From a virus, in IMG/VR virus record IMGVR_UViG_3300033997_000310, positions 1 to 64,000 of that record: a stretch of 64,000 nt of DNA; one strand, 5' to 3'. Position 1 is the stretch's first letter. Each line of letters starts with the position of its first letter. Made by a program: the position numbers and the translations under genes. Of the stretch, positions 6,950 to 47,638 are shown piece by piece. The notes below the pieces were generated by a model, which was given only the letters and a program-made list of their open reading frames with translations, was not told the origin of the DNA and searched no databases.

Positions 6950-7522
6950 AAATTTCTGGGGAAAATCGGCGGTTTTTGACTGGCCAGATTTTGGTGATTC
7001 TCGCGGCGAAATCGGGGCAAAAAGTGGGATTTTTCAGCCAATTGCAGGAAGTCATACTAATAAGAAATGTTGCGTGAATTCAATGCGTTAATTGTATTTT
7101 TATGCCGCGACATACTCTGTCGTCACAGCCACAGAGGTCTGTGGGTTTTTCACAGAGAATCACAGTGACCGATCTGGGGCCGAAAAGTGCGTTGTTTCTT
7201 GCCGTTTCCGAAAACGGAGACGCATAGAAACTATGAGGCGTACTAATAAGAAAGTATGAGGCATTTCAGGAGTTTGCGGAGATTTTGGATTTTGAACGGC
7301 GACTAAGAGACAAGACAGAGAGATAGATAATAGATTCCTCACTACGTTCGGAATCCCTCCCAAGAAGATTCTATTCCGCTTCGCTCCATAGAATCTCCCA
7401 AGGGTTCCGTCCGCGATTTTCGGTTTCGAGTGTCGGCCGGGCCGAGAGCGCAGCGCGTCGTTCAGCATCAGCGCAAACCAATGCTGGCATCACGGTCAGG
7501 AAGCAGGTATCTGGGAATGACA
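6950..7522. other. AT-rich non-coding region with repeats and hairpins
   Basis: No supported gene. The region is clearly richer in A and T than its surroundings. It holds a 13-nt direct repeat TACTAATAAGAAA (7055-7067, 7241-7253), a hairpin CCACAG-AGGT-CTGTGG followed by GTTTTT (7129-7150, terminator-like rightward), several CACAG repeats, and a 9-bp inverted repeat AGATTCTAT/ATAGAATCT (7366-7374, 7388-7396) inside a longer stem (7350-7408). It separates divergent blocks and could contain a promoter region or replication origin. Confidence 0.5.
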
Positions 7523-7555
7523 AGGCCCGGCGTCGCTGGAACGACAACCGGGCCT
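7523..7555 (+). promoter_or_regulatory. Nested hairpin upstream of HNH gene (copy A)
   Basis: Outer stem AGGCCCGG/CCGGGCCT (7523-7530, 7548-7555), inner 4-bp stem GTCG/CGAC and loop CTGGAA. It ends 28 bases before the ATG at 7584. Same architecture but different stem sequence as the elements at 35666, 38414 and 47051. Confidence 0.6.
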
Positions 7556-7583
7556 CTGACCAACCGACGCATGAGACTGCGTG

Positions 7584-8189
7584 ATGGCTGCCCGAACCAT
7601 GAAGAAAAAATCCCCCTATCGCAAGCCGCTTCCCACCCAGGAGCGGTTGAGCGAACTGCTGCGCTATGAGCCGGACACTGGTCGGTTTTTCTGGAAGGTC
7701 GATAGGCGGCAGTTTGCCAAGGCTGGCGACATCGCCGGCGGCCTCGATGCGAACGGGTATTGGGCTATCTGCGTCGATGGCGAGCTGTATCGCGCCCACC
7801 GCCTGGCCTTCGTGATCATGACCGGGGAATGCCCGGTGGAGATCAGGCATCGGGACGGAGACAGGTCGGACAATCGCTGGGAGAACCTGAGGAGGGCGAG
7901 CAACGGCGCCGGCCTTCGCAGCGACAACACCTCCGGTCACCGCGGCATTACCTGGAGCAAGCGGCGCCGCGTCTGGTGCGTGAAGATCCAAACCAAAGGT
8001 CAGGTCCACAACGTCGGGTCATTCGCTCGGCCCGAGCACGCCATTGCGGCCTACCGCGAAGCCGCTGAGAAGCACTTCGGCCCGTTTGCGGCTCACCTGA
8101 ACGACGATGGGCTGGACGTCAGTGCACTGGCTGACCAGATGGCCGAGAAGGCGTACTCGCGCAAACGCCGCCCCATCGTCTCCCCGTAA
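7584..8189 (+). CDS. Free-standing HNH/AP2 homing endonuclease
   Basis: 201 residues from the ATG at 7584; MKKK at 7599 is an alternative that gives the same N-terminus as its sibling proteins. An N-terminal RLSELLRYEPDTG motif and a central HNH core (AHRLAF...EIRHRDGDRSDNRWENLR) are followed by a C-terminal AP2-like DNA-binding domain (SGHRGITW...WCVKIQ...VGSFARPEHAIAAYREAA). Such genes are selfish homing endonucleases that spread between phages. In the core HRDGD stands where the siblings have DHKDR, so the first catalytic position differs (R-H-R-D instead of I-D-H-K). Paralogues lie at 37858 and 47111. Confidence 0.85.
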   Translation: MAARTMKKKSPYRKPLPTQERLSELLRYEPDTGRFFWKVDRRQFAKAGDIAGGLDANGYWAICVDGELYRAHRLAFVIMTGECPVEIRHRDGDRSDNRWENLRRASNGAGLRSDNTSGHRGITWSKRRRVWCVKIQTKGQVHNVGSFARPEHAIAAYREAAEKHFGPFAAHLNDDGLDVSALADQMAEKAYSRKRRPIVSP

Positions 8190-8941: not shown

Positions 8942-10375
8942 ATGTCTGCGGCGGCCCGAAAAATTGCAGAGCCGATTGCATGGGCGCCGCAAGAGGGTGC
9001 GCAGGTTTCGTTTCTGACGTGCCCGATATTCGAGGTTTTGCTTGAAGGCAATCGGGGCGGCGGAAAGACCGATGCGCTACTGATGGACTTCGCCCAACAT
9101 GTCGGCCTTGGCTATGGCGCGGCATGGCGCGGCATCCTGTTCCGCCGGGAATACAAGGAGCTTGGCGATGTGGTTGCCAAGTCCAAGAAGTGGTTCCGGT
9201 TGATCTTCCCAACGGCGCGGTTTCTTGAAAGTCAGGCCGACTACAAATGGCGTTGGCCTACTGGCGAGGAGCTGCTGTTCAGGACTGCCAAGCGGCTTGA
9301 CGACTACTGGTCATATCACGGCCACGAATACCCATGGATTGGCTGGGAAGAACTCACGAATTGGGGTTCGCCGGACCTCTACGAGCAGATGAAGTCTGTA
9401 TGCCGCTCCTCATCGGCCAAGGTGCCGAGGAAGTATCGCGCAACGACTAATCCGTTTGGGCCTGGGCATTCGTGGGTGAAGAAGCGATTCATTGATCCGG
9501 GGCCGGCAGGCTGCATCATTCGAGATAAGCAGGGGAACCTTCGCACCAGGGTTCACAGCGATCTGAACCAAAACAGGGTTCTTCTCAGCGCCGACCCGAA
9601 CTACCGCTCCAACATCGCCGCCAACAGCAACGAGGCGCAGCGCAAGGCGTGGCTTGAAGGGTCATGGGACATCGTGTCCGGCGGCATGTTCACGGACATC
9701 TGGGACCGTGCCGTGCATGTGCTGCCGCGCTTCCAGGTTCCGTCTTCGTGGCGCATCGATCGGTCTTTCGACTGGGGTTCTTCTTCTCCGTTTGCGGTCA
9801 TCTGGTGGGCTGAAAGCGATGGCACCGATCTGAAAATGCCGAACGGCCAGACAATGCGAACCGTCCGTGGCGACCTATTCGCCATTCACGAGTGGTACGG
9901 CTGGAACGGCAAGCCCAACGAAGGCCTTCGATTGCTGGCAACTGAGGTCGCCAAGGGCATCCTGAAGCGCGAACAGGAAATGGGGCTGCTTGGTCGGGTG
10001 AAGGCCGGGCCGGCTGACAACCAGATTTACCAGCGCATGAATGGCATGTGCCTTGCCGACGACATGAAGGCCGCTGGCGTGACCTGGATTGAATCCGACA
10101 AGTCGCCCGGCTCCCGCGCGTCTGGCTGGGAAGCAATGCGAATCAGGTTGGCGCAATCCAAGCCAGAAAAGCCGGGACTGCCACGGGAACGGCCCGGCAT
10201 GTTCCTTTGCGACACCTGTCGTCACGGCATCAACCAAATCAGCACCACGGCCCTGCATGAAACCAAGCAGGATGAAATCCACGAGACTGCTGAAGACCAC
10301 TGGCTTGATGCGGCCAGGTATCGAATTTTTCGCCGCCGGAGCACTGCCGGCAATATGCAGATCAAAGGGCTCTGA
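8942..10375 (+). CDS. Terminase large subunit
   Basis: 477 residues. The N-terminal ATPase has Walker A GNRGGGKT (36-43) and a Walker B-like WIGWEEL (132-138). The C-terminal RNase H-like nuclease has FDWGSSSPFAV (about 276 on) and a late acidic cluster (AEDHWLDAARY). It drives DNA translocation into the prohead and cuts the concatemer. It is followed two bases later by the portal gene, a classical packaging module. Confidence 0.93.
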   Translation: MSAAARKIAEPIAWAPQEGAQVSFLTCPIFEVLLEGNRGGGKTDALLMDFAQHVGLGYGAAWRGILFRREYKELGDVVAKSKKWFRLIFPTARFLESQADYKWRWPTGEELLFRTAKRLDDYWSYHGHEYPWIGWEELTNWGSPDLYEQMKSVCRSSSAKVPRKYRATTNPFGPGHSWVKKRFIDPGPAGCIIRDKQGNLRTRVHSDLNQNRVLLSADPNYRSNIAANSNEAQRKAWLEGSWDIVSGGMFTDIWDRAVHVLPRFQVPSSWRIDRSFDWGSSSPFAVIWWAESDGTDLKMPNGQTMRTVRGDLFAIHEWYGWNGKPNEGLRLLATEVAKGILKREQEMGLLGRVKAGPADNQIYQRMNGMCLADDMKAAGVTWIESDKSPGSRASGWEAMRIRLAQSKPEKPGLPRERPGMFLCDTCRHGINQISTTALHETKQDEIHETAEDHWLDAARYRIFRRRSTAGNMQIKGL

Positions 10376-10377
10376 CC

Positions 10378-11784
10378 ATGCCATTGGAAACCGTACATCC
10401 AGACTACGCCGCGCATTTCCGCCAATGGCAGCGCATCAGGGACTGCATAGCCGGCGAAGACGCCGTGAAGGCGGCCAAGGAGCGATATCTGCCGCGGCCA
10501 TCCGGCATGGACGATCCGATGTTCGACGCCTATGTCGAGCGGGCCTGCTTCTTCGGGGCCACGCGCCGCACGGTGCAGGGCCTGCACGGTGCCATGTTCC
10601 GCAAGGCGCCAGAGGCAACGCTGCCGGCCGGCGAGCGCTACGCCGCCCTGGTCGACAACATCGACCTGCAGGGCACGCCGCTGGACGTGTTCGCGTCGAC
10701 GCTGTGCTGGGAACTGCTGGCCATGGGCCGGGTCGGAATTCTCACCGACATGACGGCGGCAGGTGATCCCTACCTGATCATGTACATCGCGGAGAACATC
10801 ACCAACTGGCGGGAGGCCGACGTCGGCAACGTCCCAGTGCCGGACCAGTTCATCCTCATGGAGACCTACACGATCCCGGCGCTCGACGGCTTCGGCAGCG
10901 AGATCAAGAAGCGATATCGCGTCCTGGAGCTTGACGAAAACGGCCTGTATCGCCAGCGCATCTTTCAGCGGCCCGACCAGGGCGGTGAGTGGGTCGTGAC
11001 GGTGGTTGAGCCGAAAGTTCGCGGCAATCGCCTGAACACGATTCCGTTCAGCGTCCTTTCCCCGACGCAATTGCAGCTTGCCATCGAGACCAGCCCCATC
11101 AAGGAGTTGGTCGACATGAACGTCAGCCACTATCGCACGTCGGCTGACTTGGAACACGGCGCGCACTGGACGGCAACTCCGACGCCGTGGGTTTCTGGTC
11201 CATTCTCGGACGTACCGCCAGCCCTGAGTGTTGGATCAATGGCGGCATTGGTGCTGCCTGAAGGCTCCCAGGTCGGCATGCTAACCCTGAAGGGAGACGA
11301 CCTGGGCGCGCTGTTCAAGCAGCTCGAACAGAAGCAGGCCAAGATGGCGCAGCTCGGCGCCCGCCTGCTGGAAGACCAGAAACGCGCCGCCGAGACCGCG
11401 GAATCGAAGCGCCTGCAATACAGTGGCGAAAACTCCGTGCTGGCCACCATCGCCAACACCGCGAGCCGGGCCCTGACCCGCAACATCGGCTGGGCGGTGG
11501 AATGGCTGGGCGGCAACCCGGCGGACGTCGCTATCCAGGTCAATACCGACTTCTTCGACGCAACCATCGACCCGACGCTGCTGTCTTCCATGCTCGCGGC
11601 GGTGCAGGGCGGCTACATGAGCACCGACACCTTCATTTGGAACCTGATCAAGGGCGAACTGACCCCGCCGGGCAGGACGGTGGAGGAGGAGAAGGAGTTG
11701 ATCGAGATGCAGGGGCCGTCGTTTACACCGAACGTCGATCCCCCGCCGGCCGACGCCGACGCTGAAACGCAGCAGGTGGCGTGA
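10378..11784 (+). CDS. Portal protein, DUF4055 family
   Basis: 468 residues with the DUF4055 signatures: the N-terminal FRQWQRIRDCIAGEDAVKAA, the ACFFGATRRTVQGLHGAMFRK segment and the central SPIKELVDMNVSHYRTSADL. It forms the dodecameric portal that connects head, terminase and tail. Length fits the family. The C-terminal tail is proline- and acid-rich and probably disordered. Confidence 0.9.
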   Translation: MPLETVHPDYAAHFRQWQRIRDCIAGEDAVKAAKERYLPRPSGMDDPMFDAYVERACFFGATRRTVQGLHGAMFRKAPEATLPAGERYAALVDNIDLQGTPLDVFASTLCWELLAMGRVGILTDMTAAGDPYLIMYIAENITNWREADVGNVPVPDQFILMETYTIPALDGFGSEIKKRYRVLELDENGLYRQRIFQRPDQGGEWVVTVVEPKVRGNRLNTIPFSVLSPTQLQLAIETSPIKELVDMNVSHYRTSADLEHGAHWTATPTPWVSGPFSDVPPALSVGSMAALVLPEGSQVGMLTLKGDDLGALFKQLEQKQAKMAQLGARLLEDQKRAAETAESKRLQYSGENSVLATIANTASRALTRNIGWAVEWLGGNPADVAIQVNTDFFDATIDPTLLSSMLAAVQGGYMSTDTFIWNLIKGELTPPGRTVEEEKELIEMQGPSFTPNVDPPPADADAETQQVA

Positions 11785-23264: not shown

Positions 23265-24956
23265 ATGAGCGACAATTCCAAGGACAAGGCGGACATCGCG
23301 GTCAAGTTTGAGCGCGAAGTTCTGCGCTGCGTGGACGGCCTGGCCGGCGCTGCGATTGACGGGCAGGGGGCCGCTGACCGGATCGGGTTCATCGACCATG
23401 TGATGAACCTGCGCAACACGGCTCGGCATACGGTTATCAACTACCCGATGCGGGACACGGACAGCGCCGCTCGCATCGCTGACCTGGAAACCCAGATCGC
23501 CAACAAGGACAAAGCGATTGCTACGGCGACTTCTGCGCTGCTGGCAGTGAAAACACCGGTAGACCAGCGCATCGAAACCCTGGCCCGCGAGAAGATGCAG
23601 GTCACGACGGTGCTGCGGGTGCTGGCCGACGAGGTTTTCGCGTCGGGACTGGTGCTGCCTGCCGACATTGAACAGCCGCGCGACGGCCTGTCACGCGCCT
23701 ACCACGATGCGCGGGAGATGCTGAATGGCCAGCCCGCTCACCCCGACGACATCGCCATCGACCGCTTCGCCGCCGCCATGAAGACGAAGATGGCCAAGAA
23801 GCGCGCCGATGGTCGCGGGGGCTGGGATGATCCGGCGCAATGCAGCACGGGCAGGCTGGCCGAGATGCTGGTCGATCACCTGCCAAAGGGCGACCCGGTC
23901 GATATTGCCAACTTCGCCATGATGCTTTTCCACCGCGATGGTGGAGGTCGGGCCCTGGAGCTGGCTGGCGATGCTGTTTGCATGGCTATCCAGCATGCAA
24001 AGAATTCGATCCACCTCTTCGTCCCCAACAGCGACTACCAGGATTTCCTGAAGCTGCGCGGGTGGGCGCAGGACAACGGCTGGCGCGGCTTCGGGATAAG
24101 CGGCTGCACCGCCCTGCAATACTGCCTGCGCGAGCTGACGGCGCGCGTCCGGCTGGAGGATGTGCCGAACCGGGCCGAGCAGCCCATGGCCATCATTCAC
24201 GACGACACGAAGGTCACGCTGGCCAGCTACTCCGACGGCCTGGACAGCATCGACCTGCATATCGTGGGCGTGGACGGAAAGTCACGCCGGCGCCGGTATA
24301 CGGCCGATGATATGAAGCCGGCCATCAACGACTTCACCAAGCCCATCCTGACCTGGAGCGATGGCGCCAAGGTCTTCGTCAGCAGCGTCAACAACGATCT
24401 GACGGACCTGCGGCTGCGCATTGTCTACCAGGATGGCGGCACGTCGATCCGGCGCTTTTTGATGGCCGACGACGCGGAGCGCGACACGGTTCCCGCCACC
24501 GCCATGCCGGCTGAAACCATCGCCTCCGCGCCCAAGCACATGACGCAGCAGGAATTCGGAAGTCTACGTCCTGGCGATGTAGTGCGGCGGGTCAAGGACG
24601 GGAAGACCGTCCGTATTCACAGCAGAAATTCGTGGAACGGATTCAGCGGGCACGCGGTTGATGATGGCTCGCCCTACGGCGTCAACCTGTATATCGGTTG
24701 GGCCTTGGTAAGTCGGGCCCGTGATGCTCAGCCTCACATGACCGAGAAGGAGTTCGACAACCTCCAGCCTGGGGATGTGGTTCTGGGTCTTCACAGCGGC
24801 AATGGCTATGTGATTGAGGCGCCAATCGAAGGTCCAAACGGCATCTACTACAGGGCTGTGCGCCGCACGCATGTGTCTAATCACCTGGAATGGGCCCTGG
24901 TCAGCAAGGCCACCCAGCCCCAGCCGCCGGTCTCCGGCACCAGCGACAACCTCTGA
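23265..24956 (+). CDS. Large phage protein with tandem GDVV modules
   Basis: 563 residues from MSDNSKDKAD. The N-terminal third is helical with a coiled coil (ADLETQIANKDKAIATAT). The middle contains AIDRFAAAMKTKMAKKRADGRGGW...LAEMLVDHLPKGDPVDIANFAMML, a segment seen in many phage proteins of unknown function. The C-terminus carries two related modules, each beginning EFxxLxPGDVV and ending IGWALVS or LEWALVS. First gene of the long rightward accessory operon. Function unknown. Confidence 0.6.
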   Translation: MSDNSKDKADIAVKFEREVLRCVDGLAGAAIDGQGAADRIGFIDHVMNLRNTARHTVINYPMRDTDSAARIADLETQIANKDKAIATATSALLAVKTPVDQRIETLAREKMQVTTVLRVLADEVFASGLVLPADIEQPRDGLSRAYHDAREMLNGQPAHPDDIAIDRFAAAMKTKMAKKRADGRGGWDDPAQCSTGRLAEMLVDHLPKGDPVDIANFAMMLFHRDGGGRALELAGDAVCMAIQHAKNSIHLFVPNSDYQDFLKLRGWAQDNGWRGFGISGCTALQYCLRELTARVRLEDVPNRAEQPMAIIHDDTKVTLASYSDGLDSIDLHIVGVDGKSRRRRYTADDMKPAINDFTKPILTWSDGAKVFVSSVNNDLTDLRLRIVYQDGGTSIRRFLMADDAERDTVPATAMPAETIASAPKHMTQQEFGSLRPGDVVRRVKDGKTVRIHSRNSWNGFSGHAVDDGSPYGVNLYIGWALVSRARDAQPHMTEKEFDNLQPGDVVLGLHSGNGYVIEAPIEGPNGIYYRAVRRTHVSNHLEWALVSKATQPQPPVSGTSDNL

Positions 24957-24970
24957 CCGGAGCGCAAAGC

Positions 24971-25837
24971 ATGACCGACAAGAACCGTCGCCGCTATGGC
25001 GACAACGACAAGCATTTCGGCCCATTCACCTTCTGTCGCCACGACAAGCACTGGACGATCAAAGGAATCGAACTGAATTCCGGTGGACAGGACGATGATG
25101 AAGATGATGGCCGCAACGGCTGTCACCTTCTTCTGCACACCGCATGGTGGACACTGATCCTGGAACTGCCGCGCATCGTGCGTCCGAAACGCAAGTGGGT
25201 CGATTGCTCGAAATGGAACGGTGCTGGCTCCGGATATTGGGCTGAGAACGGCCGCGTGTATGGCTTCACCGTCAGCGATGGCTATTTGTCCGTTAAGTAC
25301 GGCGTGCAGACCAACGACAGCAGCACGGATCAGTCATGGGGATGGCTCCTGCCATGGACGCAGTGGCGGTTCGTCCGACACAGCCTGTATGGCCTGTTGG
25401 GCGAGCATGTGTGGACCGAACTGGAGAAGGGTGCCAAGCGCGGCATTGACCGGTACGAAGCGCGGCGCGCGGCGGAAGACGCCGTGCCCAAGGCCCTTTT
25501 CTCCATCATCGACTTCGATGGCCAGAAGATCACCGCCACCACCCATATCGAGGAACGTGAATGGCGCTTCGGTGAGGGCTGGTTCAAGTGGCTCTCGCTG
25601 TTCCGCCGCCCAAAGATTCGCCGTAGCCTGTCCATCTCGTTCGACAAGGAAGTCGGTAAGTCCAAAGGTTCATGGAAGGGAGGGATGGTCGGCACCAGCA
25701 TCGACATGCTGCGTGGCGAACTGCATGAGGCTGCCTTCAGGCGCTTCTGTGCAGAGGAGCATCGCTCCAAGGAAGGTCGCTACAGGGTAACATTCGCCGG
25801 GCCGATATCACCGATGCCAGCCCCTGTAACCGCCTAA
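24971..25837 (+). CDS. Phage protein of unknown function
   Basis: 288 residues from MTDKNRRRYGDNDKHFG with GGAG upstream. Tryptophan-rich, with alternating basic and aromatic stretches (LLHTAWWTLILELPR, WGWLLPWTQWRFV). No enzymatic motif found. Probably a defined globular protein; no family recognised. Confidence 0.55.
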   Translation: MTDKNRRRYGDNDKHFGPFTFCRHDKHWTIKGIELNSGGQDDDEDDGRNGCHLLLHTAWWTLILELPRIVRPKRKWVDCSKWNGAGSGYWAENGRVYGFTVSDGYLSVKYGVQTNDSSTDQSWGWLLPWTQWRFVRHSLYGLLGEHVWTELEKGAKRGIDRYEARRAAEDAVPKALFSIIDFDGQKITATTHIEEREWRFGEGWFKWLSLFRRPKIRRSLSISFDKEVGKSKGSWKGGMVGTSIDMLRGELHEAAFRRFCAEEHRSKEGRYRVTFAGPISPMPAPVTA

Positions 25838-32510: not shown

Positions 32511-33140
32511 ATGCAAATGCAGTTTAAGGCAGATCATGCCGATGCACTCGATTGGCTTCCGACAATCCAATCCCAATCAGCGAAGATTGTTGTTTTTGAT
32601 CCACCATATGCGGTTGGAACTCCTGTTCGCGGAAAAGAGGATGGGGCCGCTGGCAGTGTGTTTGGTCCACTATCATTTATGTCCAAGGCTCTAACGCAGT
32701 GCAGTCGTATCGTTATGCCTGGAGGTGTCGTTGTAATATTTGCCGATTGGAGAAGAATGCCGGATTTAGCATATGTTGCTACGACTGTTGGCTTGCGTGC
32801 ATCAACATGCATAGCATGGACAAGAAAGCGGCCTGGAACGGGCGGAATGTTTAGATCGGCATGGGACCCAATCCTGATCGCTTCCCGCGGTGTTGCTGAC
32901 GCTATTGATCGTGCGGCGATACGGAATGTAATTGAGGCAGACTACCCAACAAAACGCATTCATCCATATGAGAAGCCAGCAGAAGTCTTCCGGCACATTT
33001 TTCCCAGGATTTCTGTGCCAGGAGACCTTGTGGTTGATCCGTTTGCTGGATCTGGAGTGTCGGCAAGGGTGGCCAGAGAATTGGGGCTAAATTGGATCGG
33101 CTGTGATGTTGATCCACAGTTTGCGCAAGAGGCATCATGA
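32511..33140 (+). CDS. DNA methyltransferase, beta class, AT-rich
   Basis: 209 residues. DPPYAVGTP (about 30) and VVDPFAGSGVSARVA (about 175) show the beta-class order, with HPYEKP before the AdoMet motif. Codons are visibly AT-richer than in all neighbouring genes, so it was probably acquired recently. No cognate nuclease adjoins. Predicted to methylate adenine-N6 or cytosine-N4. Starts directly at the previous stop (TAAATG). Confidence 0.85.
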   Translation: MQMQFKADHADALDWLPTIQSQSAKIVVFDPPYAVGTPVRGKEDGAAGSVFGPLSFMSKALTQCSRIVMPGGVVVIFADWRRMPDLAYVATTVGLRASTCIAWTRKRPGTGGMFRSAWDPILIASRGVADAIDRAAIRNVIEADYPTKRIHPYEKPAEVFRHIFPRISVPGDLVVDPFAGSGVSARVARELGLNWIGCDVDPQFAQEAS

Positions 33141-34412
33141 ACCAGAACGTCCAGGCCACGACGCTGCCCAATGGCGTCACTGTCATCACCGACGAAATGC
33201 CGGGCAGCGGGATCGTGGCCATCAGTTGCGGCGTCGACGTCGGCAGCCGCGACGAATGCGACCGGCTGGCCGGGGCGAGCCACCTGCTGGAACACATGGT
33301 GTTCAAAGGCACGGCGCGCTATGCCGGCTCCGAGATCGCAGACATCATCGAGCGCGATGGCGGCTCGCTGAATGCCTGCACTGGCGAGGAAGGCACCGAA
33401 TACTCCGCCGAGGTGCTGGCGGAACCGGTCCCGGTCGAGAAAGCCATTGCCGTGCTCTCGGACATGATCTTCGCCCCGCGCCTGGATAAGGACGACCTGG
33501 AGATGGAGCGGGAAGTCGTCGTGCGCGAAATCCTGGAGGCGCAGGACGATGCGGATCGTCGCATGCACGATCTCGTAAAGCGATCCATGTTCGACGGCCA
33601 GTCCATTGGCCGCAGCGTCGCCGGCAGCGTCGAGACTGTGCGCGGCATCACCCAGGGCGACCTTCAGCGATTTCACAGCGCCCACTATCGCCCGCACCAC
33701 GTCATCTACTCCCTGGCCGGCGGGATAGACCATGCGACCGCTGTGGCACTGGTGGAGCGCGAGACGCGAAACGCGACCGGCCAGCACCAGATCAAGCGCC
33801 CGCCGGACCGGTTCAATCCGCAGTTCGTCACGGAGCCGGAAGGCCGGGATCAGATCAGCGTCAACGTGTCCTGGCCAGCACCGCACGCCACGCACCCCGA
33901 CTATCAGACGGTATTCACGATCAGTAACTATCTGGCATCGGGCTTCTCCGCGCCGCTGTGGAGGGCGCTGCGTGAAGATCGCAGCCTGTGCTACCACTTC
34001 TCCGCCCGGTATCGGCCGCACAGCGACGCGGGGTTCTTCAGATTCCATGCGCTGACGAGCGACGACTCCCTGGACGAACTGCTGCAGGTGGCTTCCGGCG
34101 AGATCATGGCCATGCTGGAGCGCGTTGATCCAGAGCGCCTGCGTCGCCAGTGCCAAGATGGAGATGTTCGGTCATCTCCAGTCCGCCTATGGCCGGGCCT
34201 ACTACACCGGGTCGCGCTATGCGGAAACCGGTCGCATCGTCACCTGCGCCGACATCATCGCTGACACGGAGGCAGTGACCCAGGACGCCATCCTGCGCGT
34301 GGCAGCCGAGATGTTTACGCAGCGCCCGGCCATGGCAGTGCAGGGGCCCTTCCGGCATGATCAGTATGCCACCGTCGAGGCGGCGTTTGGCGGGTGGAGG
34401 AAAGCGGCGTGA
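33137..34412 (+). pseudogene. M16-family zinc peptidase, frameshifted near 34141-34150
   Basis: The first 33137-34140 encode the M16 (pitrilysin/MPP-like) N-terminal and part of the C-terminal domain, with the inverted zinc motif HLLEH (residues 49-53) and a later EREVVVREI acidic stretch. Near GCGTCGCCAG the reading frame breaks. The remaining family-like sequence (SAKMEMFGHLQSAY...RVAAEMFTQRPAMAVQGP) continues in another frame to 34412. Skipping one C would restore a protein of about 425 residues, the normal family size. It may be a mutation, a sequencing error or a frameshift site. Being just upstream of the head gene, it is a candidate maturation protease. Confidence 0.65.
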
Positions 34413-34729
34413 CCAGGGTGGAATTCCCCATTCTCAAGCCAGTTGCCGGTGGATCCAAGAGCGTTCCATGGGCGTGGATCGAGCAATATCGGTCTGTCGC
34501 CATGCGCAACCATTATCAGACGCTCGAACGGCTGGCGGAAAGAGGTGGCCTAAGTCCGGGCGAAATATGGTTGCTCATCGCTGGTGTCCGTCCGTCCAGA
34601 ATGCCAAGAGATGTTTCTGCGGTACGTTTTCAGAACGTGATTGACCGGACCATAGAACGCTGGCGTCAAGATGCCAGCAGCGGTGAGCAAGGAGGCGACG
34701 ATGGCCAGCACGAACGAGCAAATTCTTGA
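34409..34729 (+). CDS. Phage protein of unknown function with GTG start
   Basis: 106 residues from GTG at 34409 (GTGA overlap, GGAGG eight bases upstream). Helical centre (YQTLERLAERGGLSPGEIWLLI) and basic mid-part. Overlaps the head protein gene start by 29 bases. Unknown function. Confidence 0.5.
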   Translation: MTRVEFPILKPVAGGSKSVPWAWIEQYRSVAMRNHYQTLERLAERGGLSPGEIWLLIAGVRPSRMPRDVSAVRFQNVIDRTIERWRQDASSGEQGGDDGQHERANS

Positions 34730-35660
34730 AGAGCAGGTAAGGCACTCCATCGGCCTCCAGCGACTGGCCGGCGGCACCGTCAAGGACATCCTGGCCCTGC
34801 TGGCAAAGGTAGACACCGACATCGTTGCCAAGATGCGCGAGTACGAGATCGAGGGCCGCAGCGAGGCCGCCCGACGGCGGCTGCAACGCATGCTGGAGGC
34901 CGTGCGCGAGATCATTCAGGAAGGCCACTCCGAGCTTTACCCGCGCCTGCGTGACGACATGTTCGAGCTGGCCAAGTACGAGGCTGAGTACCAGCAGAAC
35001 CTCTTGAGCAGCACCGTGCCGGTGGCCATTGACGTCATCAAGCCGTCTGTCGAGCAACTGACGGCCATCGTCACGCAGCGCCCGATGCAGGGCCTGCTGC
35101 TGAAGGATTGGGCCGCCGGCCTGGAATCCGACAAGCTGAAGCGCGTGGAGCAGGCCATCAACATCGGGTTTGCGGAAGGCGAGACGATTGACGACATGGT
35201 CCGGCGCGTCCGCGGCACTCGGGCGAAGCAATTTCGGGATGGCGTGCTGGATATCAGCCGGCGGAATGCGGAAGCCGTGGTTAGGACGGCTGTGGCCCAC
35301 ACGGCGCAGTCGGCGCGGGATGACTTGTTCGCGGCGAATGCAGACCTCATCAAGGCGGTGGCCTGGAACAGCACCATTGACAACAGAACCTGCGTCGTCG
35401 CGGGAACGATGGTGATGACGCCAGATGGTGAAACCCCCATCGAAAGCCTCACGCCCGGTGACAAAGTGATCGGAGGATCTGGAGTTATTCGCTCCGTCCT
35501 GCATACCGACACAAAGAAGGTTTCCGAACTGATGAGGGTCAAGCTATCGAACGGCGTCACGATACTGTGCACACCTGATCATATGTTCAGAACCGAATCA
35601 GGAAATTGGCTTCCGGCACATATGATGATGTCTGGTACGAAGTTGTCAGCCAAGCTATAA
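34701..35660 (+). CDS. MuF-like minor head protein, N-terminal half, with split-intein N-fragment
   Basis: 319 residues from MASTNEQ (GGAGG five bases upstream). Residues 1-230 are the helical N-extein of an SPP1 gp7/Mu gpF-type head-morphogenesis protein and stop inside its conserved motif at WNSTIDNRT. Residue 231 is Cys1 of an intein N-fragment of 89 residues: block A CVVAGTMVMTPDGETPIESL and block B TILCTPDHMFRTESGNW with the TxxH motif. The ORF ends with TAA at 35658. The partner C-fragment is at 36800. The mature head protein can only be made by trans-splicing. Confidence 0.85.
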   Translation: MASTNEQILEEQVRHSIGLQRLAGGTVKDILALLAKVDTDIVAKMREYEIEGRSEAARRRLQRMLEAVREIIQEGHSELYPRLRDDMFELAKYEAEYQQNLLSSTVPVAIDVIKPSVEQLTAIVTQRPMQGLLLKDWAAGLESDKLKRVEQAINIGFAEGETIDDMVRRVRGTRAKQFRDGVLDISRRNAEAVVRTAVAHTAQSARDDLFAANADLIKAVAWNSTIDNRTCVVAGTMVMTPDGETPIESLTPGDKVIGGSGVIRSVLHTDTKKVSELMRVKLSNGVTILCTPDHMFRTESGNWLPAHMMMSGTKLSAKL

Positions 35661-35665
35661 TGGCC

Positions 35666-35700
35666 GAACCCCCACGGCGCTGGTAACGCCATGGGGGTTC
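35666..35700 (+). promoter_or_regulatory. Nested hairpin upstream of HNH gene (copy C)
   Basis: Outer stem GAACCCCC/GGGGGTTC (35666-35673, 35693-35700), inner GGCG/CGCC with loop CTGGTAA. It starts five bases after the intein N-fragment stop and ends about 29 bases before the HNH start codon. Confidence 0.6.
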
Positions 35701-35729
35701 ATACCAACCACGCTTTGTAGGAGCGAGGA

Positions 35730-36836
35730 ATGGCGGGACAAATAGTATCAATCTGCGCCACATGCGCAAATGAATTTGTCCGGAGTGGCGGCAAATCCGG
35801 GAAATTCTGCTCTGTTGATTGTTACAGGAAATCCCAAAGGTCTGGGGATTATAAGCGCGGCCCAGGTCCATTGAGGACGAGAAGGCCATGCGCGACCTGC
35901 GGTGAAATTACCGTAAGAAACCCTGCCACCGACAGGCACGGAAACAAGTGTGACAAGGTTTTCTGCTCTCGCGCCTGCTATGATCAGCATAGGTCCAATG
36001 CGATCAAGGCCAGAAAAGTAAACTGCGCTCATTGTGGTGTCGCATTCTCCCCAGGATCTGGCAATGGATTTAAGTATTGCTCTCATGAATGCAGGGTTGA
36101 GCACAAGCGTCCAAAGACTGTCATCTGCATAAATTGCGGGTGTGAATTTTGCGCAATAAAGCGCATGAAGAGACCAAATAACAGAATTGAGTTTATTTCT
36201 GTATCAGGCGCAAAAACCTGCTCGAAAGAATGTAATTTGGCGTGGATCAGCAACAATGAAGAGAGAAAGAAAAAGATTGGCGATGCGTTCCGTGGGCCAA
36301 ATCATCCGAACTGGCAGGGCGGGAAATCGTCACTTAACAACGTATCTAAAAGAGGTGCTAGTTGGGAGAAGATAAGGAAAAAGGCACTGAAGAGAGACAG
36401 GCACAAATGCGTTGACTGTGGCATCAGCAACGACCAGTGCATTGAAAAGTTTGGTCGCGGCCTTGATGTAGATCATGTCGTTCCATTCCACAACTTTTCA
36501 AAGTTCAAGGAAGCAAATAGATTATCCAATCTGCAATGCAGATGCAGTTCATGTCACAAGCGCGCCGAAGCCAAGCGAAAAAACGTACAAATGGTGCTAC
36601 CATTCCAGGACAGTGCGAAACGCAGACACAAGGGCGGGCATCGTATGGGCGAAAAGCATCCTAAAGCGAAACTTACATCTGCCCAGGTCATGCAAATCAG
36701 GAAAGAGCACGCTGATGGAGTTTCAGCGCAAGAGCTTTCGCAGAGTTACGGCATCAAAAAGTCAAATGTGCACGCTATAATTAAGGGGAAGACCTGGAAA
36801 TGCCTACCAATATCACCGTCGAACACGCCGAATTGA
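35730..36836 (+). CDS. HNH homing endonuclease inserted in the fractured head gene
   Basis: 368 residues with AGGAG before the start. The N-terminal half has four to five CxxC...CxxxC zinc modules (CATC, CATC, CAHC, CINC). The HNH domain follows (CVDC...LDVDHVVPFHNF...LSNLQCRCSSCHKRAEAK, about residues 222-285). A C-terminal HTH (KLTSAQVMQIRKEHADGVSAQELS...KGKTWK) is typical of phage HNH enzymes. The gene is AT-richer than its surroundings. Free-standing endonucleases lying between split-intein halves are the hallmark of fractured genes. The last 37 bases overlap the intein C-fragment ORF. Confidence 0.88.
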   Translation: MAGQIVSICATCANEFVRSGGKSGKFCSVDCYRKSQRSGDYKRGPGPLRTRRPCATCGEITVRNPATDRHGNKCDKVFCSRACYDQHRSNAIKARKVNCAHCGVAFSPGSGNGFKYCSHECRVEHKRPKTVICINCGCEFCAIKRMKRPNNRIEFISVSGAKTCSKECNLAWISNNEERKKKIGDAFRGPNHPNWQGGKSSLNNVSKRGASWEKIRKKALKRDRHKCVDCGISNDQCIEKFGRGLDVDHVVPFHNFSKFKEANRLSNLQCRCSSCHKRAEAKRKNVQMVLPFQDSAKRRHKGGHRMGEKHPKAKLTSAQVMQIRKEHADGVSAQELSQSYGIKKSNVHAIIKGKTWKCLPISPSNTPN

Positions 36837-37336
36837 TAACGCTCGATGAGCCTGTTGATGTTTTCGACATCCAGGTTGATGTTGATGAAAGCTTTGTCTG
36901 TGGCGGCATTGTTCTAAGCAACTCGTCCATTTGCAGGACTCGTGACAGCCTGCAATACACACCTGTGGAGCATAAGCCAATAGGTCACAGCGTTCCCTGG
37001 CTCCAAGGCCCGGGTCGGTCTCACTGGAATTGCCGATCCAGCAGCGTCCCGATCACCAAGTCATGGCGCGAACTCGGCATAGACGAAGACGAATTGCCGA
37101 TCACCACGCGCGCCTCAATGGACGGCCAAGTGCCAGCCGACATGACCTACAGCGACTGGCTCAAAAAGCAGCCGCGCTCCGTGGTTGACGAAATCCTGGG
37201 TGAGAAAAAGGCCAAGCTGTTCCTCGACGGCGGCGTCACCCTGGATCGGTTCGAGGATCGCGCCGGGAATGAACTCTCGCTCAAGGAATTGCGCGCCCGC
37301 GAGGCTGAAGCCTTCCGCAAAGTCGGCCTGTCCTGA
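36800..37336 (+). CDS. Split-intein C-fragment plus C-terminal half of MuF-like head protein
   Basis: 178 residues. Residues 1-41 are the intein C-fragment with block F VFDIQVDVDESFVCGGIV and the terminal Asn of LSN; the usual penultimate His is Ser here. The C-extein begins with Ser at residue 42 (SSICRTRDSLQY) and has WNCRSSSVP and MTYSDWLKKQP, both typical of the C-terminal half of MuF proteins. Joined to residue 230 of the 34701 product it restores the motif TIDNRT-SSICRTRD. Confidence 0.85.
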   Translation: MPTNITVEHAELITLDEPVDVFDIQVDVDESFVCGGIVLSNSSICRTRDSLQYTPVEHKPIGHSVPWLQGPGRSHWNCRSSSVPITKSWRELGIDEDELPITTRASMDGQVPADMTYSDWLKKQPRSVVDEILGEKKAKLFLDGGVTLDRFEDRAGNELSLKELRAREAEAFRKVGLS

Positions 37337-37857: not shown

Positions 37858-38385
37858 TCAGGCGGCCAAATCAAGGTTAACGTATTCGCTCCACTGAGCC
37901 ACGGCGGCTTGCCGATAGGCTTCAGCGGCATCATTGATGTCGGAAAAACAGCCAAGCTCTTTGACGCGCTTACCAATTGTAATTTGTGCGCGCCATTTAC
38001 CACTCTTTTTGTGCCAGCTAACGCCTTTGATCCCTGATTTATTTCTACTGCTTAACGTCTTATTTACCTCATTCTCTGCCCTGGACGCTGGACGAAGATT
38101 TGACCAAGCGTTGTTGCTGGGGTTACGGTCCTTATGATCAATTTCATATGGGCACGATCCAGTCATCCAGACGAAGGCCAATCTATGGGCCGAATACATC
38201 GCATCACCAATACCGATAAGCCGATAGCCGTCCGGCCTGTTATACCCGGCCACGTCGCCAGCGCTGACACGTCGACCATTGCCAGCCAGCCACCGGAACA
38301 TTCCTGTATCTGGATCGTAATGCATCAGTTTCCGCAAGTGCTCTTGCGTAGGAAGCTGGGCAGGCGTATTTCTGCGCTTAGTCAT
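37858..38385 (-). CDS. Free-standing HNH/AP2 homing endonuclease
   Basis: 175 residues. TQEHLRKLMHYDPDTGMFRW at the N-terminus, HNH core SAHRLAFVW...EIDHKDRNPSNNAWSNLR, and C-terminal AP2 domain (SGIKGVSWHKKSGKWRAQITIGKRVKELGCF...AAEAYRQAA). AGGAG precedes the start. Same family as the genes at 7584 and 47111. It lies between head genes and the leftward accessory block and is likely a mobile insertion. Confidence 0.88.
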   Translation of the reverse strand: MTKRRNTPAQLPTQEHLRKLMHYDPDTGMFRWLAGNGRRVSAGDVAGYNRPDGYRLIGIGDAMYSAHRLAFVWMTGSCPYEIDHKDRNPSNNAWSNLRPASRAENEVNKTLSSRNKSGIKGVSWHKKSGKWRAQITIGKRVKELGCFSDINDAAEAYRQAAVAQWSEYVNLDLAA

Positions 38386-38413
38386 TTGCGGCTCCTATAA
38401 GCCCGGTGATCAG

Positions 38414-38448
38414 AAAGGCCGGACACCGCAGCAACGGTTCCGGCCTTT
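38414..38448 (-). promoter_or_regulatory. Nested hairpin upstream of HNH gene (copy D)
   Basis: Outer stem AAAGGCCGG/CCGGCCTTT, inner ACCG/CGGT, loop of six. It ends 28 bases before the start codon of the HNH gene at 38385. It may double as a bidirectional terminator. Confidence 0.6.
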
Positions 38449-38507
38449 CGCCATTGTGCCACATGCACATAGCATCATCAACACCACGAACGAACTTACC
38501 TGCTTCT

Positions 38508-44659: not shown

Positions 44660-45805
44660 ATGCCGGTTCTGAGTTACAAGTATCGCCTGTATCCGACACG
44701 CGCCCAAGGTGATGCGTTGACGGCGATGCTCGGCTCTTTCTGCGAATTGTACAATGCGGCCTTGCAGCAACGCATAGAAGCATACCGCCGTCAGGGAAAA
44801 ACGCTTCGTTATATTGACCAGGCCGGCGAGTTGAAGTCAGTGCGCGCCGTTGACGAACAGATGGCTGGCTACAGTTACAGTGCGGAGCAGCAGGTATTGC
44901 GCCGGCTAGACAAGGCATTTTCTGCTTTTTTTGGACGGATAAAAAAGGGAAAGGCTGGCTTCCCACGCTTTCGCGCCAAGAGCATGTTTGACAGTGCCGA
45001 ATTTAGGTTCGGTGACGGACTGACGATTCGGAAGACTGGAAAGCTTAGGGTTGCCGGAATTGACGGAGAAATAAAGGTAAAATGGCACAGAGATATTCCT
45101 GTTCGAGCAAAGATTGGCGCGGCAGTAATATCCAGATCATGCGGCAAATGGTACATATGCTTTCAGATCACCATGCCAGACGCTTATGGACCTTGGCCCG
45201 ACAAGGGAGCGGTCGGCATCGACATGGGTCTGTCGAACCTGATCGCCACATCGGACGGCGAGACGGTGCGGACGCCGCAATTCACCAAGGATGCGGTCAA
45301 GAAGCAGCGCAGGCTTCAGCGTAGTCTCGCGCGCTGCAAGCGGGGCTCCAAGGGGCGGGCAAAGGCCCGGCGTAACCTTGCGCGGCACAGCGCCAAAACG
45401 GCTAATCGCCGCAGGGACTTTGCGCACAAACTTTCCCGCTCCTTGGTAGAACGCCACAGCACCATAGCGGTTGAGGACCTGAACATCACCGTATTGGCCC
45501 GTGCGATACTTGCCAAGTCGGTCCATAATGCCGCGTGGGCGCAGTTGCTGGGGATGATCGGATACAAAGCCGCAAATGCTGGTGTTCGGGTGATCGCCGT
45601 CAACCCACGGGGAACAAGCCAAACGTGCCCGGAGTGCGGAGCTTTGGCCGTCAAAAAGCTTGCGACCAGAGTTCATAACTGCGCAAATTGCGGCTGTGTT
45701 ATGGATCGAGATGTTGCGGCGGCCATGGTTATACTTAAACGGGCGCTTTCTGAAATGGGGCCGGGACACGGCCTTGAGACGATAAGTGGGCGGATTGCCG
45801 CGTAA
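44660..45805 (+). CDS. tnpB: TnpB RNA-guided nuclease
   Basis: 381 residues, a full-length TnpB. The split RuvC residues are in GIDMGLSNL, VEDLNI and DRDVAAA; the four-cysteine zinc finger is CPECG...CANCG. TnpB is guided by an omega RNA from the element right end to cut sites next to the target motif, favouring element retention. All catalytic residues seen are intact, unlike TnpA. Starts four bases after tnpA stops. Confidence 0.92.
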   Translation: MPVLSYKYRLYPTRAQGDALTAMLGSFCELYNAALQQRIEAYRRQGKTLRYIDQAGELKSVRAVDEQMAGYSYSAEQQVLRRLDKAFSAFFGRIKKGKAGFPRFRAKSMFDSAEFRFGDGLTIRKTGKLRVAGIDGEIKVKWHRDIPVRAKIGAAVISRSCGKWYICFQITMPDAYGPWPDKGAVGIDMGLSNLIATSDGETVRTPQFTKDAVKKQRRLQRSLARCKRGSKGRAKARRNLARHSAKTANRRRDFAHKLSRSLVERHSTIAVEDLNITVLARAILAKSVHNAAWAQLLGMIGYKAANAGVRVIAVNPRGTSQTCPECGALAVKKLATRVHNCANCGCVMDRDVAAAMVILKRALSEMGPGHGLETISGRIAA

Positions 45806-47020: not shown

Positions 47021-47050
47021 TCCATGCACAATTGATATGGTACAAAGAAC

Positions 47051-47083
47051 AAGCCGGGCGGCGCGCTAACGCCGACCCGGCTT
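47051..47083 (+). promoter_or_regulatory. Nested hairpin upstream of HNH gene (copy B)
   Basis: Outer stem AAGCCGGG/CCCGGCTT, inner GGCG/CGCC, loop CGCTAA. It ends 27 bases before the HNH start. Preceded by GGTACAAAGAACAAG, nearly the same as at 17970. Confidence 0.6.
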
Positions 47084-47110
47084 CACTGCAACGGCATTCG
47101 GGGCCGCACA

Positions 47111-47638
47111 ATGTCCAAAGATGCTATACGTGCGTCAGGAATTACACAAGAGAAGCTTAAACAGATTATTTCATACGACCCGTCAACCGGACATTTCACT
47201 TGGCTTGTCCGCAGGTCGTGGCGCGTATTGCCTGGAATGAGAGCCGGCACGATCAATTCATCTGGTCATAGACAGATTAATATCGGGAAGTGTTTGGTAT
47301 TGGCTCACAGGCTTGCCTGGTTCTACATGACTGGAAAAATTCCAAATGGGGAAATTGACCATAAAAATAGAAACAGAGATGACAATAGGTGGGATAATAT
47401 TAGAGAGTCCACTAGATCGACAAATTGCGCAAATAAGGAAAAGCCTGCAACAAACACAAGCGGCTTCAAAGGTGTCAGCCTACATAAACGAACAGGAAAA
47501 TGGCAGGCGACAGTAAAGGTAAACGGAAAAGTGAAATATATTGGCATGTTTGCGGACAAAGTAGAAGCCGCTGCCGCTTACGCTAAAGCCGCAAATGAAG
47601 CGTTCGGCGAATTCGCATGCACTGACTCTGCCGCTTAA
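47111..47638 (+). CDS. Free-standing HNH/AP2 homing endonuclease
   Basis: 175 residues. TQEKLKQIISYDPSTGHFTW, HNH core LAHRLAWFYMTGKIPNGEIDHKNRNRDDNRWDNIR and C-terminal AP2 domain (SGFKGVSLHKRTGKWQATVKVNGKVKYIGMF...AAAAYAKAA). Markedly AT-rich codons compared with its surroundings, a sign of recent arrival. It sits between the metallopeptidase gene and the tRNA region. Confidence 0.88.
   Translation: MSKDAIRASGITQEKLKQIISYDPSTGHFTWLVRRSWRVLPGMRAGTINSSGHRQINIGKCLVLAHRLAWFYMTGKIPNGEIDHKNRNRDDNRWDNIRESTRSTNCANKEKPATNTSGFKGVSLHKRTGKWQATVKVNGKVKYIGMFADKVEAAAAYAKAANEAFGEFACTDSAA

Follow-up and report, generated by a model that had tools for sequence, protein, structure and literature searches.

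How does a virus make a head protein when the only gene for it lies in two pieces, in different reading frames, with an endonuclease gene between them? The question is raised by a window of 64,000 nucleotides, the first part of the 114,801-base uncultivated virus record IMGVR_UViG_3300033997_000310, in which a MuF-type head gene is interrupted at 34701-37336; no second MuF-type gene is present in the whole record. The original prediction, made from the letters of the window, was that a split intein interrupts the gene and that a free-standing HNH gene separates the intein halves, and this is supported by the sequence, by models and by relatives in other phages. The locus is real: a MuF head gene, confirmed to be interrupted by a split intein whose two halves flank an HNH gene. 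Very probably the gene is a fractured one, whose two products are trans-spliced by a gp41-1-like split intein and whose HNH endonuclease homes on intact MuF genes and was probably once free-standing. The parts of the locus, with the support for each, are as follows (a slash marks the joint in motifs throughout).

34701 to 35390, plus strand: N-extein, residues 1-230 of a MuF/SPP1 gp7-type head-morphogenesis protein, ending in WNSTIDNRT (phrog_241, E=8e-76; 82 uninterrupted relatives align with it as far as the joint)
35391 to 35660, plus strand: N-terminal intein half (IN), 89 residues, with Cys1, block B TPDH and the stop codon TAA (Hint_2, TIGR01445; AlphaFold2 and Foldseek)
35656 to 35661, plus strand: TATAAT, a putative -10-like promoter hexamer overlapping the IN stop codon (the same or a one-mismatch hexamer precedes most related HNH genes)
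35666 to 35700, plus strand: P1, a nested hairpin in the leader RNA of the HNH gene (folding z score, covariation)
35708 to 35728, plus strand: P2, a small hairpin enclosing the Shine-Dalgarno sequence of the HNH gene (predicted; weak)
35730 to 36836, plus strand: free-standing HNH endonuclease gene (PF01844, PHROG HNH families, homologs at MuF)
36800 to 36922, plus strand: C-terminal intein half (IC), 41 residues, with its own ATG, block F with VFDIQVDVDESF, and block G GGIVLSN with penultimate Ser and terminal Asn (weak PF14890 match at 128-155; family alignment; E=6e-17 with a family model that includes the window sequence itself)
36923 to 37336, plus strand: C-extein, the remaining MuF head protein, from Ser+1 (SSICRTRD...HWNCRSS; phrog_241, E=9e-52; the joined exteins pass PF04233)

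The first open reading frame (ORF1, 34701-35660, with an alternative ATG at 34671) crosses the DNRT/C boundary at 35390/35391 and ends with a TAA at 35658. The HNH ORF of 368 residues, with AGGAGCGAGGA upstream of its ATG, lies in the same frame, but two in-frame stops separate the two. ORF3 (36800-37336) has its own ATG, begins MPTN...VLSN/SSICRTRD, occupies a different frame and shares its first 37 bases with the end of the HNH gene. These coordinates, frames and separate starts and stops agree with those first proposed, and the sequence anatomy of the locus is established. A sequencing or assembly error could instead have broken up an intein that was continuous and had its HNH domain in frame, and both the apparent frameshift in the neighboring M16 peptidase gene and the continuous intein of one relative (L164) would suit such an origin; it is nonetheless most improbable, for it would take several errors to produce two in-frame stops, a leader and ribosome-binding site of the HNH gene's own, and an ORF3 that starts in another frame within the HNH gene, the layout recurs in other assemblies, and the HNH ORF of L164 is out of frame, not fused. 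The same split in nine other phages rules out a one-off artefact.

The host protein and the joint are well defined. The two exteins match adjoining segments of phrog_241 (head morphogenesis), the N-extein at 10-240 and the C-extein at 239-365. Joined at DNRT/SSIC they reach 34.4 bits with PF04233 (Phage_Mu_F; cut-off 29.6) over model positions 2-110, whereas ORF1 alone scores 20.1 bits, under the cut-off; with TIGR01641 the joined exteins score 33.3 bits, below its cut-off of 39.65. The assignment of the host as a MuF-type head protein thus holds, on the phrog_241 and PF04233 matches. In an alignment of 82 uninterrupted relatives the T230/S231 joint is crossed without a gap, so the insertion point is exact to the residue; W, D, T and C around it are invariant, and the motif in these relatives, W-x-[SA]-T-L-D-x-[RK]-T/[ST]-x-x-C-x-x-R-D, bears out the earlier claim that the joint falls inside a conserved DxRT-SxIC-type motif.

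The inserted coding ends carry the features of two intein halves. IN has the Cys1 nucleophile and a TPDH block B, and scores above cut-off with both Hint_2 (E=9e-9) and TIGR01445 (intein_Nterm); its AlphaFold2 model, from an 11-row alignment, has a mean predicted local distance difference test score of 90.5, and its best Foldseek matches in the PDB are the gp41-1 and Npu DnaE split inteins, followed by other inteins. IC supplies block F, the VLSN/S end, the terminal Asn and the Ser at +1; the halves sit on separate ORFs, and the exteins, put together, make up a known protein with the joint in a conserved motif. A profile of the joined halves from seven phages aligns end to end with gp41-1, a natural split intein (E=8e-18), and the natural split of gp41-1 falls at a similar point. 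Seven aligned split members, which are 27-48% identical to the window, all keep Cys1, the Thr and His of TxxH, the Asp of block F and the terminal Asn.

This conservation bears on two further explanations. The MuF fragments might associate and work as separate polypeptides, leaving the intein pieces as inert remnants; loss of the penultimate His in the window intein would be in keeping with this, and functional genes in pieces made by a homing endonuclease have a precedent in a phage ribonucleotide reductase (a case cited in PMC10448857). Yet inert remnants would not keep their catalytic residues in so many phages, and such an arrangement is unlikely. A Hint-type cleavage, in which IN and IC merely release their flanks in the manner of PT-HINT or bacterial intein-like domains, draws some support from the matches, which include PT-HINT and 2lwy, a bacterial intein-like domain; the best match, however, is gp41-1, and what follows IC is the remainder of MuF, resuming, with the Ser+1 nucleophile, exactly where uninterrupted relatives continue after Thr230, which makes cleavage without splicing very unlikely. 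The reading best supported by the sequence is that the two MuF parts would be joined by protein trans-splicing.

Three proteins would be translated from the locus: the MuF N-part with IN, the HNH homing endonuclease (whose gene has a leader and a ribosome-binding site of its own), and IC with the MuF C-part. IN and IC would associate into a gp41-1-like Hint fold. Judging by the conserved residues, Cys1 would attack the Thr-Cys bond, the chain would pass to Ser+1 and the terminal Asn would cyclize, leaving MuF joined as DNRT-SSIC. The HNH protein, to judge from its genomic associations, would cut insertion-free MuF genes at or near the DxRT/S codons, and repair would copy the cassette in. Its gene probably began as a free-standing one aimed at MuF and then lodged between the intein halves at its own target site.

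The arrangement recurs. A degenerate DNA pattern, back-translated from W..TLD.RTC[LVI] and searched in viral contigs, found ten loci, all ten of them inteins in MuF at the DxRT/S site, three being split (L098, also recorded as L107; L099; and L100, also recorded as L106). The search with the HNH protein alone added the split loci L126, L128, L130, L163, L170 and L177. The nine further split loci lie at the exact MuF site and share the order MuF N-part, IN, stop, HNH, IC, MuF C-part; eight of these phages have the full three-part layout, and in L099 the HNH gene is degenerate, with most of its core lost. Several continuous inteins also occupy exactly this site. A single-sequence search with the 89-residue IN retrieved no relatives from the viral contigs, and in bacterial genome contigs the junction-type pattern gave nothing but chance matches. 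For 14 of the 15 pairs of split loci, identity is higher between the inteins than between the exteins.

The HNH protein has four CxxC...CxxxC zinc-finger-like pairs, a weak NUMOD3-like motif (sub-threshold only), an HNH core at about 36408-36569 and a helix-turn-helix-like C-terminus. It passes the PF01844 cut-off and matches PHROG HNH families, and most of the zinc-finger Cys pairs are invariant among its homologs. As a free-standing endonuclease gene, with its own start and ribosome-binding site, between the two parts of a host gene, it is what defines a fractured gene. Homologs were collected by profile at E<=1e-40, in a search not conditioned on MuF, and the window is excluded from the counts. 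They lie at MuF in 25 of the 25 contigs with an assessable neighborhood (a 26th, L160, begins inside the gene; L170 was assigned to MuF by eye, at a DQRT/C site): eight inside split inteins, one in a continuous intein (L164) and 16 downstream of intact MuF, as a rule no more than 100 bases away. Near-copy contigs (L133/L173; L166/L169/L174) reduce the independent cases to about 22; the association itself is established. The closest homologs of the window HNH are free-standing (L125, 51% identity; L157, 49%), and in the HNH tree free and embedded copies interleave, and well-supported branches require three changes. A free-standing origin is probable, given that relatives have this HNH cassette next to intact MuF genes. 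Together with the higher identity of inteins than of exteins and the scatter of split loci across the MuF tree, the association and the interleaved tree fit a mobile endonuclease with MuF as its putative target, that is, a homing cassette.

Since the insertion holds an HNH gene, an RNA intron or a programmed ribosomal event that restores MuF with no intein has also to be weighed: HNH genes often reside in group I introns. But an Rfam search of the region found no intron, and the inserted coding ends encode intein blocks, which leaves this account a very small chance. What most HNH copies do carry, between the stop codon of IN (or MuF) and the HNH start, is a leader with TATAAT or a one-mismatch version, a nested hairpin, CTAACCA or a similar sequence, and a small Shine-Dalgarno hairpin. 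P1 has a folding z score of -3.8 in the window alone and about -10 when pooled, and its covariation is clear: across 12 leaders, nine of the 11 pairs show double (compensatory) changes, paired cells amount to 87% vs 69% in shuffles, and the covariation score is 0.48 vs 0.19 (0 of 500 shuffles reach 0.48). A poorer alignment, of eight leaders, had shown no signal with RNAalifold. A P2 stem of at least 4 base pairs is found in eight of eight relatives vs about 50% of control genes, and so is a weak feature. The RNA model R1, with which the window leader, a training member, scores 62 bits, also finds non-training leaders at the right place (L166, L169 and L174; weakly L159 and L175), and Rfam gives sub-threshold matches only. 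The promoter role of TATAAT and the regulatory role of the leader are suggested by analogy: in T4 homing genes a promoter and a hairpin that sequesters the ribosome-binding site time endonuclease expression (PMC2988022), and the leader here, with its box, hairpin and Shine-Dalgarno sequence, parallels theirs.

Two weak further R1 matches in the window (7513-7585 and 47040-47113) stand just before AP2-type HNH genes at 7581 and 47111, and folding shows a similar leader at 38383-38470 (minus strand) for a third AP2-type HNH gene (38385, minus strand). These genes, whose leaders are less sure, belong to another HNH family than the MuF HNH.

Five continuous MuF inteins have an out-of-frame endonuclease ORF overprinted between IN and IC:

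L164, 3652-4890: HNH of the window family
L113, 3830-5083: GIY-YIG
L119, 5037-6224: GIY-YIG
L122, 1934-3112: GIY-YIG by similarity below cut-off
L124, 1494-2700: a close relative of L119

In these loci the intein frame has no stops over 265-288 codons, whereas synonymous-codon shuffles average 8-16 and never reach zero in 2000, so selection seems to keep both frames open. A broader and more tentative proposal, a little short of an even call, is that an HNH cassette targeting MuF (promoter-like box, leader RNA and zinc-finger HNH gene) has moved repeatedly among three states: free-standing next to an intact MuF gene, lodged in a split intein, and overprinted out of frame in a continuous one.

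Several points weigh against a trans-spliced MuF with a homing HNH gene. The source is a metagenomic virus record, and the frameshift in the M16 gene makes base errors possible. The MuF tree across which split loci are scattered has a locus-sampling bias and long branches, and inteins under stronger constraint than exteins could produce part of what looks like horizontal transfer. The specificity of the HNH protein is read from genomic position only. The expectation that both halves match intein models held for IN; IC alone is below the model cut-offs (PF14890, E=0.21; TIGR01443, E=0.16), though the family model recognizes it. The common His at F:13 is missing from block F, and the penultimate residue is Ser where the usual, but not universal, His is expected. 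That this Ser is unusual, as first noted, is confirmed, since the other split members aligned have His; it is not by itself a ground to suspect the chemistry, as L177 also ends in VLSN and splicing by inteins that lack the penultimate His is reported in titles cited in PMC4031507. The Ser therefore lowers the expectation of activity, as far as those titles go, without removing it.

Other observations concern MuF genes and the surroundings of the locus. MuF has a second intein insertion site, at an H.NC/RC motif (L115, 5966-6736; L114, 3987-4805; L113, from 5159; L117; L123), sometimes occupied together with the DxRT/S site. MuF genes of isolate phages that seemed to run past the joint beside GIY-YIG genes were rejected as candidates: the two examined (Yuavirus LKO4 and Enterobacter phage ATCEA23) are uninterrupted, and the GIY-YIG gene of LKO4 lies upstream of MuF. 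The M16 zinc peptidase gene (33137-34412; PF00675, PF05193) has its apparent frameshift, a sequencing error or real, near 34110-34130. Terminase and portal genes (8942-11784) lie about 23 kilobases upstream of MuF, which in related phages directly follows the portal gene; the gap holds cargo, including a strong match to the CBASS inhibitor Acb3 (24890-25837; PF25187, E=4e-71). A transposase-like gene (44660-45805; phrog_506) lies inside the phage region.

Production of a head-assembly protein would here depend on protein trans-splicing, in an arrangement that is recurrent and not a freak. If the cassette does move among three states, split inteins of this kind would originate in mini-inteins, when a homing gene whose target site they occupy inserts itself into their loop. 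One endonuclease found free, in split inteins and overprinted at a single site is a natural series on which the origin of fractured genes and of split inteins can be tested. The gp41-1-like halves are compact, at about 88 and 38 residues, and are candidates for protein engineering; two of them come from inteins without the penultimate His.

The locus is a variant of a known fractured-gene arrangement. Dassa et al. reportedly described, in 2009, fractured genes with the split inteins gp41-1, NrdJ-1 and IMPDH-1 and a free-standing endonuclease of a new family between the parts. As there, the host gene is divided into two ORFs by intein halves with an endonuclease gene between them, and the window intein is nearest gp41-1 in sequence and fold; unlike there, the host is the MuF capsid protein and the endonuclease a zinc-finger HNH protein, not one of that new family. 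Pseudomonas phage vB_PaeM_MIJ3, in the part of PMC6892783 that deals with it, likewise has a split intein with an HNH-type gene (orf154) between its halves, but in DNA polymerase B (PolB), whereas a family of related loci and free-standing sister copies are features of the present system. The original prediction knew of no such intein in a MuF-like head protein. This does not stand: a Mu-like prophage of Methylococcus capsulatus was reported in 2004 to have an intein in F (Mu gp30), continuous and with no recognizable endonuclease where the present one is split and holds HNH (PMC517821), and the loci above add more continuous inteins and nine split ones at this site. T4-type collaborative homing shares the free-standing endonuclease that targets an insertion site and the promoter and RNA hairpin before its gene, with introns and free-standing homing endonuclease genes in place of the split intein (PMC2988022, PMC10448857). 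The overprinted relatives resemble ShiLan, where an out-of-frame HNH gene is overprinted on a host gene with no intein or other splicing domain (PMC11855218), but they have complete intein halves on both sides. The MIJ3 and M. capsulatus cases lower the novelty of the locus; the recurrent family, the free-standing sister HNH genes at intact MuF, and the leader they share add to it.
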